Positions 23,630 to 30,302 of a stretch of 64,000 nucleotides of DNA are shown here, piece after piece; position 1 is the first letter of the stretch; the number at the start of each line of letters is the position of its first letter. The notes below the pieces were generated by a model. That model had not been told where the DNA came from and did not search any database. It saw only the letters and a program-made list of their open reading frames with translations. Source of the DNA: Holdemania massiliensis AP2. GTDB lineage: Bacteria > Bacillota_I > Bacilli_A > Erysipelotrichales > Erysipelotrichaceae. A program made the position numbers and the translations under genes. The stretch is taken from NCBI RefSeq assembly GCF_000327285.1, contig NZ_HE998567.1, positions 1,379,649-1,443,648 on the forward strand, given 5' to 3'.

Positions 23630-23760
23630 CTTTGAGATCCCCCTTATCTCAAAGATTATTATTGGGTTCAAACCTCACAGCGTGATTGAGATAAGGGCAC
23701 GCAAAAACCCGTCCTGACACAGAACATATAGTTTGCCAGGCTATCCAGTCACAGGACTGG
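23630..23760 (-). ncRNA. Candidate omega (reRNA) guide scaffold at the 3' end of tnpB
   Basis: TnpB nucleases use an RNA made from the 3' end of the element. Here three blocks of complementarity lie after the stop codon: TTGAGATAAGGG (23686-23697) pairs with CCCTTATCTCAA (23641-23652), and ATCTCAAAG (23646-23654) can instead pair with CTTTGAGAT (23630-23638). A further hairpin, CCAGTC-CTGT-GACTGG, covers the last codons of tnpB. Guide sequence would follow on the minus strand below about 23630. This is structural inference; the ends are not mapped. Confidence 0.5.
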
Positions 23761-24799
23761 ATTCAGGTGCATGAACAATATTCATCGCACCGACGATATC
23801 GCGATGACAGTGGAAGCCGCAGACACATCGATAAAAACGCTTGTCAGGGGTATTGAGTCTGCCGCAGCGCGGACATCGTTTGGATGTATAGCGAGGATCA
23901 ACAAAAACTAAACGGAGTCCTTCGCGCTGTGCTTTATAACGGACGTTGTCAATCAAACGGTAATATGACCACTGGTTCAGCTCCCGCTTATCTCTGGATT
24001 GTTTCATTTCTCGTTTGCCAATTCCGTGAAGCTGCTCTACACAGAGCACGCCAACATTCTGATCGACTGCAAACTGAACAATCTGAGAGCTGATGAGATG
24101 ACATTGCGTAATCATCCAGCGGTAAAGACCATGATTCAATTCTTTAATTTTTGAATAGTCTTCCTTTTTTTGAAGTTCTGTAAGTTTTGCATAAAAAGCA
24201 TTGCGGCGAAAACGGGACTCTCGTCCATTTCCGAAAAAGTGGATTTTTCCATCTTCTGTGAAGGCAACCGCAGGAACTTTAATTCCCAGATCAATGCCCA
24301 TTCTTTTTGTCGATATGGATTGCGGTTTTTCCGGCACTTTAACATTAAGTTCAGCAGCCCACCATTGTTTGTAGGGATGAATGGTCAGTTTGCCTAATTC
24401 CATGCTGAGAAAACGTTGTTGATATGGCTCGGCCATGATTGGTAATTTCAGCGTGTCACCGATACCGAAGCGGCCGCCAACCTGAATTTCTAATTCATTA
24501 TCCACAATTTTGAAGTTTGGCTGATGCCAGCAGCATTGCGATGTTTTCAATCTCAGTTTTAGATTGTTAAATTTTTGAACATGTTTGAAGATTTGCTTTG
24601 CATCCTGAACGACCATTGCACGACTCCAGAAAGGGATGAAAGTGCAGAAGTCGCCATAGGATACATAAACAGGATGTTTGTTTTTGATATAAAGCTGAAG
24701 TAAGTTGTTAACCTCATTTTGATAGGCCTTTGCCATAATTGTAAGAATTCTTGATGTATTTTCATCAGTTTTTAATAAGATCCGACAAGTAAGATAAAT
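23741..24799 (-). CDS. tnpB: TnpB RNA-guided endonuclease with apparent ATT start
   Basis: An RNA-guided DNA nuclease, ancestor-like to Cas12. The RuvC parts are visible: MGIDLGIKVPAVAF (Asp), GVLCVEQLHG (Glu), and the four-cysteine zinc ribbon CPRC...CVCG followed by HRDIVGAMNI (Asp). The first ATG (24736) gives only 331 aa. The frame is open upstream and encodes YLTCRILLKTDENTSRILTI, the family's usual beginning, right after an optimal AGGAGGTG (24805-24812, spacing 7). At that position the codon is ATT (24797-24799), not ATG. Either it uses a rare AUU start or the start codon was lost by one mutation. The catalytic residues look intact. Codon use resembles its neighbours. Confidence 0.85.
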   Translation of the reverse strand: MYLTCRILLKTDENTSRILTIMAKAYQNEVNNLLQLYIKNKHPVYVSYGDFCTFIPFWSRAMVVQDAKQIFKHVQKFNNLKLRLKTSQCCWHQPNFKIVDNELEIQVGGRFGIGDTLKLPIMAEPYQQRFLSMELGKLTIHPYKQWWAAELNVKVPEKPQSISTKRMGIDLGIKVPAVAFTEDGKIHFFGNGRESRFRRNAFYAKLTELQKKEDYSKIKELNHGLYRWMITQCHLISSQIVQFAVDQNVGVLCVEQLHGIGKREMKQSRDKRELNQWSYYRLIDNVRYKAQREGLRLVFVDPRYTSKRCPRCGRLNTPDKRFYRCVCGFHCHRDIVGAMNIVHAPESSPVTG

Positions 24800-25663: not shown

Positions 25664-26008
25664 TTACATGAGCTCTAGCCCCAGACTGACGCACAAAGCT
25701 TCGTCTATCGCCTGTAAGGTCTTTCGATCTAATGTGCAAACCCATTGTCCTAATCGCTGCTTATCAATCGTCCGAATCTGTTCCAGCAGTACGATCGACG
25801 CCTTTTCTAAGGAATCGGCCGGCAGAATTACATGAGTCGGAATCGGCGGTTTAGTCAGCCGGCTGGATATCGGCGCCACAATCAAAGTTGGCGAAAATCG
25901 ATTTCCTTTGTCATTTTGAATAACCACCACCGGCCGCAATCCGCCCTGTTCACTTCCGATACTCCCCGCCAGGTCCGCATAATACACATCCCCTCGGCGC
26001 ACCATCAT
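25664..26008 (-). CDS. mazF: MazF/NdoA-type mRNA endoribonuclease toxin
   Basis: A 114-aa member of the PemK/MazF family, which cuts mRNA at short sequences. The family pattern is clear: VRRGDVYYADLAGSIGSEQGGLRPVVVIQND, then SPTLIVAPISSR and LLEQIRTIDKQRL. It is close in pattern to Bacillus NdoA. The start overlaps the stop of the YdcC-like gene as TAATG, with no ribosome binding site of its own, so it depends on translational coupling. In Bacillus the same neighbourhood holds ydcC, alr, the antitoxin gene ndoAI and ndoA. Here alr and any antitoxin gene are missing between the two, and none is seen downstream. Confidence 0.9.
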   Translation of the reverse strand: MMVRRGDVYYADLAGSIGSEQGGLRPVVVIQNDKGNRFSPTLIVAPISSRLTKPPIPTHVILPADSLEKASIVLLEQIRTIDKQRLGQWVCTLDRKTLQAIDEALCVSLGLELM

Positions 26009-26994
26009 TATTTCATGACCGATACTTGCATGCTTTCCACAACCTGCATCATCTCCTGCGGCGTCAGATCGTTGGAGTATACAGAATATTCAACCTGACT
26101 GTTGGTAATTGTAAGCCGATTTCCGTCATAATATCCGACCAACCCCAAACCTTCGATCAGATCGCCGTTCACTTCCGTGACAGTCAGTTCTTGACTAGGC
26201 GCTCTTTCTGTCTGTACAACCGTGAAATCCCGATCACCGCTGAATTCCAGAATGTGCTGAGGCTGACCGTTGACTGAGGAGACCGTTGATGCGACTAGCT
26301 TGGAATCAAAAACTGTCATTGGATACAGCGGCAATTCAATCAGTCCAGTGTAGCTGCTGGTCGGTGTTTCAATCGAGTTCTTCGGCGTATCAAAATAGCC
26401 AGCTTCAAAGCCTTCATTATAACTGACCGCCGTAAATTCCATGGTTAATGCCGGAGCGTTGTTTGCATCATAGGCAATCAGATATAATGGCTTCGTGTCT
26501 TTGTTGAACTTGATTTCCTGGCGGACGAGCTGAGCGGCACTTGGATATTTAGCCTCGGCGCTGATCAGAATCCCATCCTTTTCTTTTTTCGTTTGATGGT
26601 CATTCTTCAGGACTTCCATCATCGTCTGAAGCAGATAAGGCTTCGGCGAGTTCATCGGCCATTCGCCTTGGAACTTAAAAACCTGGTTCAATGAAGGAGT
26701 AACAACAAAGACACCTTCTTTATTCTTAAGAATAATCTGTTCCTGGTTCAGCGACTTATCGATCATACTGACCTTAAAGTACTCGTCTTCGCCCTCCTTC
26801 ATCCATGAGGATGTAATCGCGTAGTTCTTGAATTCTTCGCCGCTGGAAATTTCCATATTCCCTTCCAGCTTGTAGCTGGTCAGCTTCTGCATGGTTTTGT
26901 CCGCCTTCTTCTCAAATGAGCTGGGTTTCAGCACAAGAAATAACGCGACAACCAACAAAAGGACCCCAACGATCACTGCGACTTTCTTCTTCAT
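26008..26994 (-). CDS. YdcC-like envelope protein (LolA-type fold)
   Basis: A 328-aa exported protein. It starts MKKKVAVIVGVLLLVVALFLVL (a membrane anchor or uncleaved signal), then SSFEKKADKTMQKLTSYKLEGNMEI, the LolA/YdcC-type beginning of a lipid-binding beta fold. There is no lipobox cysteine. The ATG at 26994 has AAAGGTGG upstream; the frame opens 17 codons earlier without support. Related Bacillus proteins sit beside alr and mazF, and a mazF gene follows here in the same operon. Its C-terminus has LTPQEMMQVVESMQV, a family trait. The function is probably envelope- or sporulation-linked, but no direct evidence is visible. Confidence 0.75.
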   Translation of the reverse strand: MKKKVAVIVGVLLLVVALFLVLKPSSFEKKADKTMQKLTSYKLEGNMEISSGEEFKNYAITSSWMKEGEDEYFKVSMIDKSLNQEQIILKNKEGVFVVTPSLNQVFKFQGEWPMNSPKPYLLQTMMEVLKNDHQTKKEKDGILISAEAKYPSAAQLVRQEIKFNKDTKPLYLIAYDANNAPALTMEFTAVSYNEGFEAGYFDTPKNSIETPTSSYTGLIELPLYPMTVFDSKLVASTVSSVNGQPQHILEFSGDRDFTVVQTERAPSQELTVTEVNGDLIEGLGLVGYYDGNRLTITNSQVEYSVYSNDLTPQEMMQVVESMQVSVMK

Positions 26995-27092
26995 AATTCC
27001 ACCTTTCCTTTTCAACACAAGGTATGCGCTTTTGTGTCGGTTCATGCATAAATCCGCAAAGGTTCGCTATTCTGTAATAGGAGGAATTGTGT

Positions 27093-27627: not shown

Positions 27628-27819
27628 TTATTGAATCGTAAAACCGGCTTCCCGGATCGCAGTTTTTGCGGCGTACACCAAATCGTTAGAGCCCTCGATG
27701 ACCACGGCACCGCTTTCCAGCGCAACTTTATATTCTACGCGAGTATCATCCAGAGCCGCTCGAATGCGGTCTGCCTGATCCTCGGTTTTCATGTCCCGGA
27801 CAAAAATGATCGTTTTCAT
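27628..27819 (-). CDS. HMA-fold small protein without the metal CxxC
   Basis: A 63-aa ferredoxin-like protein of the heavy-metal-associated type. MKTIIFVRDMKTEDQADRI is beta-alpha, then YKVALESGAVVIEGSNDLV and AKTAIREAGFTI complete the beta-alpha-beta-beta-alpha-beta pattern. The metal-binding loop GMxCxxC is replaced by RDMKTEDQ, so copper or zinc transfer is unlikely. AGGAGG is 7 bases before the ATG. It stands alone upstream of a hairpin region. The role is unknown. Confidence 0.75.
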   Translation of the reverse strand: MKTIIFVRDMKTEDQADRIRAALDDTRVEYKVALESGAVVIEGSNDLVYAAKTAIREAGFTIQ

Positions 27820-27891: not shown

Positions 27892-28746
27892 TCAGGAATT
27901 CTTCAGTTGGGCTGCCGTTGAAATCTGTCTGGCAATGGCAGCGATTTGACAGGCTTGCAGCGGATCTGAGGTCAGCCGCAGATGCCACTGTCTATCATTC
28001 TTCCCCTTTTGTATTTGATCAATCAATATTCGTGTTTCCTGACGGGCATTCTGGAAATGATCCAGTATTTTCTCAGACGCAAGCACTAAGGAATGGTCCG
28101 GCTGCTGCAATAATCTGCAAAGCTGCTCAGCAGTAAGGGATCGATTCAGGATAAGGATCAGATCGGCTTCCACATACGACTCCCCTTCCCAGAGCTGAGC
28201 CTTTCTTATATTGATCTTTATTTCAGGAAGCAGCCTTTCCAGCTGTGTTTGCAGACAGGAAGCCAACTTCACAGGTTGGTTTTTCAGTTTTTTCTCCTGT
28301 CTTTCTGTGCAGACCTCCACTTGCGTCAAAATCGACAGCTGGATCAAAGGCTGCAGCGCCGTCGCAATCATCCAAACTTCCGGCAGTGGTAGTTGGATCT
28401 GCCGCAAGGGCCCGTTTTCCAGTCCTAACTGACAAGGCAGATTTTCCGTGTACTGCGCACTCACCAGTTTAGCCTTCCCGTGTTTGTATTGTTGAATTAT
28501 TTTGTCATTGTCGCTGCAGGGCGGCAAAATCACAATCAGTTCAGCCCGCTCAAAAAGTATCCGGTTCAACGGTTGAGGCCGGATCTCTCCTTCCGCCAAG
28601 GTTAAAGGCCTTAACCCTTTCTGACTGCTTGCCCAATTCAAACTGCACGGACATCCCAATACCGTGCATGCATCAATCAGCCGGCTAAGCTGCGCCGGCT
28701 TATCCGTAACCACTAATGTTCGCAGTCTTCGCATAGCTGAATCCAA
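27892..28746 (-). CDS. Degenerate aspartate-semialdehyde-dehydrogenase-like protein
   Basis: About 280 aa. No strong family call is certain, but the layout follows aspartate-semialdehyde dehydrogenase (ASADH): LNWASSQKGLRP (like LLSSKRSAG), FERAELIVILPP, IQLPLPEVWMIATALQPL where ASADH has NPNCST...VAALEPI, then GESYVEADLILILNRSLTAEQL and RQWHLRLTSDPLQACQ near the C-terminus. The catalytic Cys (NPNCST) is replaced by LPLPEV and the NADP loop GATGxVG is missing, so it cannot be a normal enzyme. It directly follows, and overlaps, the aspartokinase gene. The start is uncertain: TTG 28746 or ATG 28734. It could be a pseudoenzyme that regulates the kinase. The call rests on my alignment by eye. Confidence 0.5.
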   Translation of the reverse strand: MDSAMRRLRTLVVTDKPAQLSRLIDACTVLGCPCSLNWASSQKGLRPLTLAEGEIRPQPLNRILFERAELIVILPPCSDNDKIIQQYKHGKAKLVSAQYTENLPCQLGLENGPLRQIQLPLPEVWMIATALQPLIQLSILTQVEVCTERQEKKLKNQPVKLASCLQTQLERLLPEIKINIRKAQLWEGESYVEADLILILNRSLTAEQLCRLLQQPDHSLVLASEKILDHFQNARQETRILIDQIQKGKNDRQWHLRLTSDPLQACQIAAIARQISTAAQLKNS

Positions 28747-29459
28747 GTTCCCTTTCCAACCTGCAGCGAGGAGCCCACCCAGACACGCAATCGGTGTTCA
28801 CGGGCAAACAGAATACTCTGCCGCTGCATTACGCGGGCTCCGGCATCAATCATGTGCAGCATCTGATCGTAATCAACCTTGTCCCAATGTCGCGCTTCGG
28901 GATTAAGTTTAGGATCCGCATCATAAATTCCGCTGACGTCCGTTAAGATATAGACATCCTTCAGACCTAATGCTTGGGCCAGAAGCATCGCCGTATAATC
29001 ACTGCCGCCTCGTCCCAGCGTCGTGATTTCATGATCGAGTGTGATCCCCTGATAGCCTGGAACAATCAGACAATCGCAGTGATCGAGCTTTTCCAGCAGC
29101 TTCCCCGTCGTGACCGTCAGCACTTCCGCTTCACCATAGTGATCATTAGTGATGATCCCCAATTCCTGCGTACTGAGCGTATCGCTGAGAATTCCATTCT
29201 GCCGGCACAGAGAATTGATGACCAACGTGCTAATCATCTCCCCTGCCGAAACCAGCCGATCGCGCTGCTGAGGGGTCAGATATTTAGCCAGGGACATCAG
29301 TGTATCCGTCGCATAGGGATCGGGATAGCGCCCCATCGCAGAAACCACTGCAATCACTTTCATTTCCGGAATCAGACGACGGATCAGGCGAACAGCTCGA
29401 TTGCGGGCAGCTTCCTCTTTCAGCGAGGTTCCCCCAAACTTAATAACACAGATTTCCAT
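28713..29459 (-). CDS. Aspartokinase catalytic domain without ACT domains
   Basis: Phosphorylates aspartate, the first step to lysine, methionine, threonine and diaminopimelate. Sequence marks: VIKFGGTSLKEEAARNRAV, SAGEMISTLVI, TLGRGGSDYTAMLLAQ and TDVSGIYDADPKLNPEA. The protein is only 248 aa, whereas aspartokinases are normally about 400 because of C-terminal ACT domains for feedback by lysine or threonine. These are absent, and no frameshift to restore them is seen: the downstream frame is the ASADH-like protein. The enzyme could be feedback-insensitive or regulated by that neighbour. Its 3' end overlaps the next gene by 34 bases. Confidence 0.88.
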   Translation of the reverse strand: MEICVIKFGGTSLKEEAARNRAVRLIRRLIPEMKVIAVVSAMGRYPDPYATDTLMSLAKYLTPQQRDRLVSAGEMISTLVINSLCRQNGILSDTLSTQELGIITNDHYGEAEVLTVTTGKLLEKLDHCDCLIVPGYQGITLDHEITTLGRGGSDYTAMLLAQALGLKDVYILTDVSGIYDADPKLNPEARHWDKVDYDQMLHMIDAGARVMQRQSILFAREHRLRVWVGSSLQVGKGTWIQLCEDCEH

Positions 29460-29591: not shown

Positions 29592-30302
29592 TTATTCTGC
29601 AGCTTCCAAAGCAATTTCCATCATCTTGGTGAAGGATGTCTGACGCTGCTCTGGGGTTGTCACTTCCGAGGTCACGAATGAATCGGATACCGTGATCAAA
29701 CAGGCTGCGTTTTTGCCTAAGACCTGAGCATTGTGGAACAGCGCAAAGCTCTCCATTTCAACAGCCAGACAGTGATGAACCTCCGTCAGTTCCTGAATGT
29801 AATCGTTGCCGCCTTCGCGATAAAAAACGTCGCTGGAGTGGATGCAGCCGATATGCAGCGGCATTCCCAGTTTTTCTGCCGCATCTTTGATCCGCTGGTT
29901 CAGCGTCTGCGATGGATAGGTTTTATCCTGATCATAGCCGCTCTGTACTTTAGCATAACTGGATTCACTGTAGGCACTGTCCGCCAGGACGACATCAAAG
30001 ACCTTCAAATCGGGTGAATAGGCGCCTGCGGAACCGATACGAATGATGTTTTCGACACCGTATTGACTGAACAGCTCATAGGAATAAATTCCAATACTCG
30101 GCATTCCCATGCCGCTTCCCATTACTGAAATCGTCTTTCCTTTATAAGTTCCGGTATAGCCGAACATATTGCGGACGGCATTGAACTGGACAGGATTCTC
30201 CAGAAATGTTTCAGCAATGAATTTTGCGCGCAGGGGATCCCCCGGCATCAGAACAGTTTTGGCGATCTGCCCTTTTTCGGCACTGTTGTGCGGTGTTGAC
30301 AT
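29592..30302 (-). CDS. deoD: Purine nucleoside phosphorylase
   Basis: A hexameric purine nucleoside phosphorylase of 236 aa that splits purine (deoxy)nucleosides with phosphate into base and sugar phosphate. Signatures: VLMPGDPLRAKFIAE at the N-terminus, VMGSGMGMPSIGIYSYEL, IRIGSAGAYSPDLKV and CLAVEMESFALF. Length and motifs match bacterial DeoD. The start at 30302 has AGGAGG, and a TATAAT lies 35 bases upstream. It is monocistronic, with no deoB or deoC in the window. It serves nucleoside salvage. Confidence 0.95.
   Translation of the reverse strand: MSTPHNSAEKGQIAKTVLMPGDPLRAKFIAETFLENPVQFNAVRNMFGYTGTYKGKTISVMGSGMGMPSIGIYSYELFSQYGVENIIRIGSAGAYSPDLKVFDVVLADSAYSESSYAKVQSGYDQDKTYPSQTLNQRIKDAAEKLGMPLHIGCIHSSDVFYREGGNDYIQELTEVHHCLAVEMESFALFHNAQVLGKNAACLITVSDSFVTSEVTTPEQRQTSFTKMMEIALEAAE

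Follow-up and report, generated by a model that had tools for sequence, protein, structure and literature searches.

The window analysed here, a stretch of 64,000 nucleotides from Holdemania massiliensis AP2, encodes on its minus strand an aspartokinase (AK) without ACT domains and, overlapping its end, a partner protein that structure prediction and profile comparison support well as a catalytically dead descendant of aspartate-semialdehyde dehydrogenase (ASADH), the next enzyme of the pathway. The partner is maintained by selection, and ASADH-derived genes occupy the same position in two further genera. That the coupled partner serves the AK as a non-catalytic subunit is a reading which we judge to be evenly poised between right and wrong.

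Organization of the locus

The features discussed below are all encoded on the minus strand:

29592..30302 (minus strand), purine nucleoside phosphorylase of the DeoD type (PF01048, 7e-39), upstream neighbour
28713..29459 (minus strand), ACT-less (catalytic-domain-only) aspartokinase, 248 aa (Pfam AA_kinase, 4.4e-40; motifs intact)
28713..28734 (minus strand), 22 nt shared by the end of the AK gene and the beginning of the partner gene, whose start codons align among the four Holdemania genomes
27892..28734 (minus strand), partner, predicted ASADH-derived pseudoenzyme, 280 aa from ATG 28734 (AlphaFold2 model, profile score, dN/dS)
27628..27819 (minus strand), HMA-like protein, 63 aa, CxxC lost, conserved next gene after AK or AK plus partner
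26008..27045 (minus strand), putative lipoprotein or secreted protein, found downstream of ACT-less AK across genera
25664..26008 (minus strand), MazF/PemK-like protein (PF02452, 7e-33), by synteny the end of the conserved locus

The order AK, partner (where present), HMA-like protein, putative lipoprotein and MazF recurs across the family. A purine nucleoside phosphorylase gene lies near the AK also in genera g46, g21 and g13, and no riboswitch was found at the AK/partner locus.

The start codons of the partner genes are in register, with ATG at position 28734 of the window and ATG, ATG and GTG in the three other Holdemania genomes, the GTG belonging to the most distant one. The length of 284 aa given in the sequence-only reading stems from a mechanically called reading frame beginning at TTG 28746 and has to be shortened to the 280 aa that follow from the conserved ATG. 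The same reading described the two proteins as fused by coupling; the genes do overlap, and the 22-nt overlap suggests that they are translationally coupled, but they are not fused.

The putative lipoprotein has no Pfam match and belongs to a family of proteins of 330–345 aa, which in many genomes is followed by a MazF-like gene. The CxxC motif of the HMA-like protein is kept only in a few relatives (L061, L087, L088 and L090), and relatives that keep it match the Pfam HMA model at 1e-8 to 1e-9. Elsewhere in the window, a TnpB-like protein with a Cas12f1-like TNB zinc-ribbon domain (7e-21) is encoded at 23741-24736 on the minus strand.

The short aspartokinase

Aspartokinase is a textbook example of an ACT-regulated enzyme. 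The open reading frames of both genes were confirmed, and the product of 28713-29459 combines the AA_kinase fold with the catalytic signatures KFGG[TS]S, GRGGSD and TDVxG[IV]Y, the motifs KFGGTS, GRGGSD, TDVSGIY and DPK all being intact. Aspartate-kinase models are matched over the first ~245 of ~405 positions only, with the alignment ending at profile position ~249, and no ACT domain was found after the catalytic part, in agreement with the earlier claim that these domains have been lost. Scores against the models for full-length monofunctional aspartokinases fall far short of the required values (TIGR00656, 217.7 bits versus 402; NF006068, 229 versus 474). These DapG-type models nevertheless represent the best family for the catalytic domain, from which the window AK differs by lacking the ACT domains that the 412-aa version of the sister family has at its C terminus. 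Within Holdemania, the AK is 94–96% identical in two other species and 64% identical in a third.

The absence of ACT domains is no peculiarity of the window gene but is common to an entire group of related AKs: when 315 genomes of the order were searched, ACT-less AKs with open frames of roughly 240–310 aa came to light in about 17 Erysipelotrichaceae genera. Moreover, true copies of both pathway enzymes, whose presence elsewhere in the genome had been raised as a point to check, were found in the window genome: a hom-lysC-asd operon encodes a full-length AK and a live ASADH, and a second live asd lies upstream of a dapF-like gene (the names hom and dapF being read from sequence).

Fold and ancestry of the partner

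Sequence searches with the partner gave no significant match in Pfam, NCBIfam or the PDB, only chance matches. An AlphaFold2 model was calculated from an alignment of the four Holdemania proteins alone, with no ASADH rows. Although this model is modest, with a pLDDT of 64, ASADH structures rank first among its Foldseek matches (E 3.4e-11), the VIA-align Z-score to ASADH is 17.4, and the C-terminal domain fits H. influenzae ASADH over 157 residues at 2.6 Å. A second model, to whose alignment the homologues from genera g41 and g48 as well as true ASADHs were added and which thus leans on ASADH rows by design, reached a pLDDT of 81.7 and a VIA Z-score of 26.1. The predicted fold comprises the Rossmann plus the dimerisation domain of ASADH; an unrelated fold, which would have spoken against the sequence-only reading, did not turn up.

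At the profile level, the Holdemania partners align with a combined profile of ASADHs and intermediates over 273 collinear columns with a score of 30.2, whereas the maximum among shuffles was 23.3 and none of 300 column shuffles reached the observed score. Only this combined comparison is convincing. The smaller ones were not: set directly against ASADH, the four partners gave a P of 0.057 in hhalign, a score equalled or exceeded by three of 100 column shuffles, and a direct comparison with the g41/g48 homologues, both being small sets, was not significant. Identity between the Holdemania partner and ASADH amounts to 10–15%, and the partner is about 50 residues shorter, with a gap around the substrate-binding segment. 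Taken together, the model built without ASADH rows, the profile comparison and the syntenic intermediates of other genera uphold the ASADH-like layout noticed earlier.

Loss of active-site residues

In all four Holdemania partners the cysteine of the NPNC motif, the glutamine of STYQ and the active-site histidine are absent, and the GxxGxxG loop has T, P and L/V/F in place of its three glycines. The lack of the catalytic cysteine and the NADP loop had been recognized from the window sequence; the loss extends to glutamine and histidine as well. Counting all genera, the histidine is lost in each of the 11 partner genes found and the cysteine in all but one. Thus, a dead enzyme paralogue, its death being judged from residues, is coupled to a short enzyme of the first pathway step.

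The one exception is the homologue of g48, which keeps the cysteine, and the substrate arginine is kept in g41 and g48. These residues could speak for a partner that still acts on a related acyl phosphate, but with the histidine missing from every homologue and cysteine, glutamine, histidine and dinucleotide loop all gone in Holdemania, continued catalysis is highly improbable.

Occurrence in other genera

ASADH homologues of 334–336 aa begin 4 bp after the ACT-less AK in six genomes of g41 and one of g48 (HMM E-values 1e-26 to 1e-41; one copy ends at a contig end). Their homology to ASADH extends over the whole length. The active-site histidine is lost in seven of seven and the cysteine in six of seven, and of the loop glycines the second and third are missing; the Pfam match of the dimerisation domain is 1e-14 to 1e-16, that of the NAD-binding domain staying below the cut-off. 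A true asd is present in five of the seven genomes with the pair, the assemblies of the other two being 66% and 83% complete. In the ASADH tree the pseudo-Asd clade sits on long branches.

In Holdemania as in g41 and g48, the partner is inserted between AK and the HMA-like gene, which are directly adjacent in most other genera. This shared syntenic slot ties the Holdemania partner to the g41/g48 homologues, a link that otherwise rests on the fold and a modest profile score. The two groups are not joined in the AK tree, which leaves room for repeated loss as well as for two separate origins in one slot; since the slot is shared, loss is favoured.

All 11 partner genes adjoin an ACT-less AK, and among about 316 genomes of the order none was seen apart from such a kinase. 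Outside the genus, proteins of the Holdemania type were detected neither in these 316 genomes nor in a collection of 84,980 species; the genus is represented, besides the window genome, by genomes such as H. filiformis DSM 12042 and Holdemania sp. Marseille-P2844. The g41/g48 type was not encountered beyond g41 in 395 genomes of the class, a sample which may have lacked g48.

Most genera with an ACT-less AK have no partner. The ACT-less enzyme is the only AK found in eight genomes (G001, G022, G023, G074, G075, G161, G164 and G257), among which G001 alone has a partner. G074 is a single-contig genome. The short AK evidently can work alone, and the use of ACT-less AKs without partner in many genera, in several as the only AK, argues that the partner is no obligate activator. 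Its role is more likely to be regulatory or lineage-specific than a general requirement for activity.

Selection on the partner

Purifying selection maintains the partner, which is a fast-evolving protein. Its frame is intact in four of four Holdemania species despite near-saturated synonymous divergence, and dN/dS amounts to 0.14–0.19 between three of them, values that are approximate as dS is near saturation. Between close g41 pairs dN/dS is 0.05–0.11. For the AK the ratio is lower still; in Holdemania the partner's rate of evolution is about tenfold that of the AK, which is unusual for a tightly bound subunit and counts against the subunit reading.

Fast evolution, together with the patchy distribution and the truncation by some 50 residues in Holdemania, would also fit a leftover asd copy of an AK-asd operon that is drifting towards loss. 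However, four intact frames and a dN/dS of 0.05–0.2 indicate selection on the protein, and such a vestige is very unlikely.

Proposed role of the partner

By analogy, the likeliest role of the partner would be that of a non-catalytic subunit of the kind found in HisGS/HisZ, where the short, feedback-insensitive HisGS is activated and regulated by HisZ, itself the dead paralogue of a different enzyme (PMC10795190). The partner would keep the ASADH dimerisation domain and bind the AK, which it may stabilise or regulate as HisZ does the short-form HisGS. The pair may descend from an ancestral AK-asd operon, comparable to that of the sister family, in which a live asd stands directly behind the gene of an AK of ~412 aa with ACT domains. 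The asd of this operon would have turned into a pseudoenzyme and subsequently been lost in many lineages.

In a more far-reaching form, which we put forward as a tentative possibility, the Erysipelotrichaceae would have given up the ACT domains, and control of the AK would have passed to a dead version of the enzyme next in the pathway, translated from the same message, perhaps jointly with the HMA-like protein. HMA and ACT domains share a ferredoxin-like fold, so that the HMA-like protein may itself be a small partner of this kinase.

Two alternatives assign the partner other tasks. It could enter mixed oligomers with true ASADH and thereby bring this enzyme to the AK, so that the labile aspartyl phosphate is passed on. 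Retention of the dimerisation domain next to an eroded NAD-binding signature would suit such a tether, as do the true asd genes, which the window genome has and which occur in five of the seven genomes of g41 and g48 that carry the pair; an identity to ASADH of only 10–15%, however, makes a conserved ASADH interface in Holdemania doubtful, and we regard the proposal as unlikely. Also improbable is that the ASADH-derived protein has acquired a new role of its own, for instance as a sensor of ligands or in binding nucleic acids, and has no more than the operon in common with the AK. Rapid divergence, the loss of all catalytic residues and the ability of the AK of sister genera to manage without a partner would be in line with this, but the partner was not seen parted from the ACT-less AK among about 316 genomes of the order, and it is tightly coupled to it in every case.

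Comparison with known systems

The proposed subunit arrangement resembles HisGS/HisZ in that the enzyme opening an amino-acid pathway is short and is combined with an enzyme paralogue devoid of catalytic activity (PMC10795190). It differs in that HisZ derives from HisRS whereas the partner derives from the next enzyme of the pathway, in that the action of HisZ is proven whereas the partner is known from genes and models, and in that the short AK also occurs without its partner.

The closest relative by predicted fold, and for the g41/g48 versions by whole-length homology, is ASADH itself (Asd; TIGR01296, asd_B; PDB 2gyy and 2r00), from which the partners are set apart by the absence of the active-site histidine, the dinucleotide glycines and, in all but one, the cysteine. 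USG-1-type proteins (PDB 2hjs) are likewise ASADH relatives annotated apart from Asd, and they are generally regarded as non-catalytic; their genes are not known to lie beside an aspartokinase. Although 2hjs is among the matches to the partner, the g41/g48 homologues are nearer to Asd (2gyy, 3e-38, versus 2hjs, 1e-20), whereas the Holdemania partner is too diverged to be placed. AspKin_pair of Pyrococcus (TIGR02078), whose title calls it a putative aspartate kinase subunit, may represent another split aspartokinase. This model, however, is itself an aspartokinase relative, unlike the ASADH-derived second protein of Holdemania, and the window AK reaches 104 bits with it, the cut-off being 242.

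Dead enzymes beside live ones are a known theme, as are ASADH-like proteins apart from Asd such as USG-1. The literature searched, which covered few of the subscription journals, did not describe an ASADH pseudoenzyme tied to an AK without ACT domains. If the proposed role is correct, the aspartate family would possess an arrangement like HisGS/HisZ, and a kinase that has dropped its ACT domains while a dead next enzyme is kept beside it would offer a natural test of the takeover of regulation by a pseudoenzyme. The graded series, from a live asd in the sister family over the near-intact pseudo-Asd of g41 and g48 and the worn partner of Holdemania to no partner elsewhere, makes this evolution directly testable. 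As Holdemania are gut bacteria, the way in which they control the making of lysine and threonine may also be relevant to cross-feeding.

Two further AK genes deserve mention. One genome (G254:C23:77527-78717) encodes an additional full-length AK besides the asd-adjacent and the ACT-less one. In genome G052 of the sister family, the gene of a 365-aa AK without Pfam ACT match overlaps a dihydrodipicolinate synthase gene (L056:1486-3433), possibly a second lineage in which an altered AK is coupled to a pathway gene.
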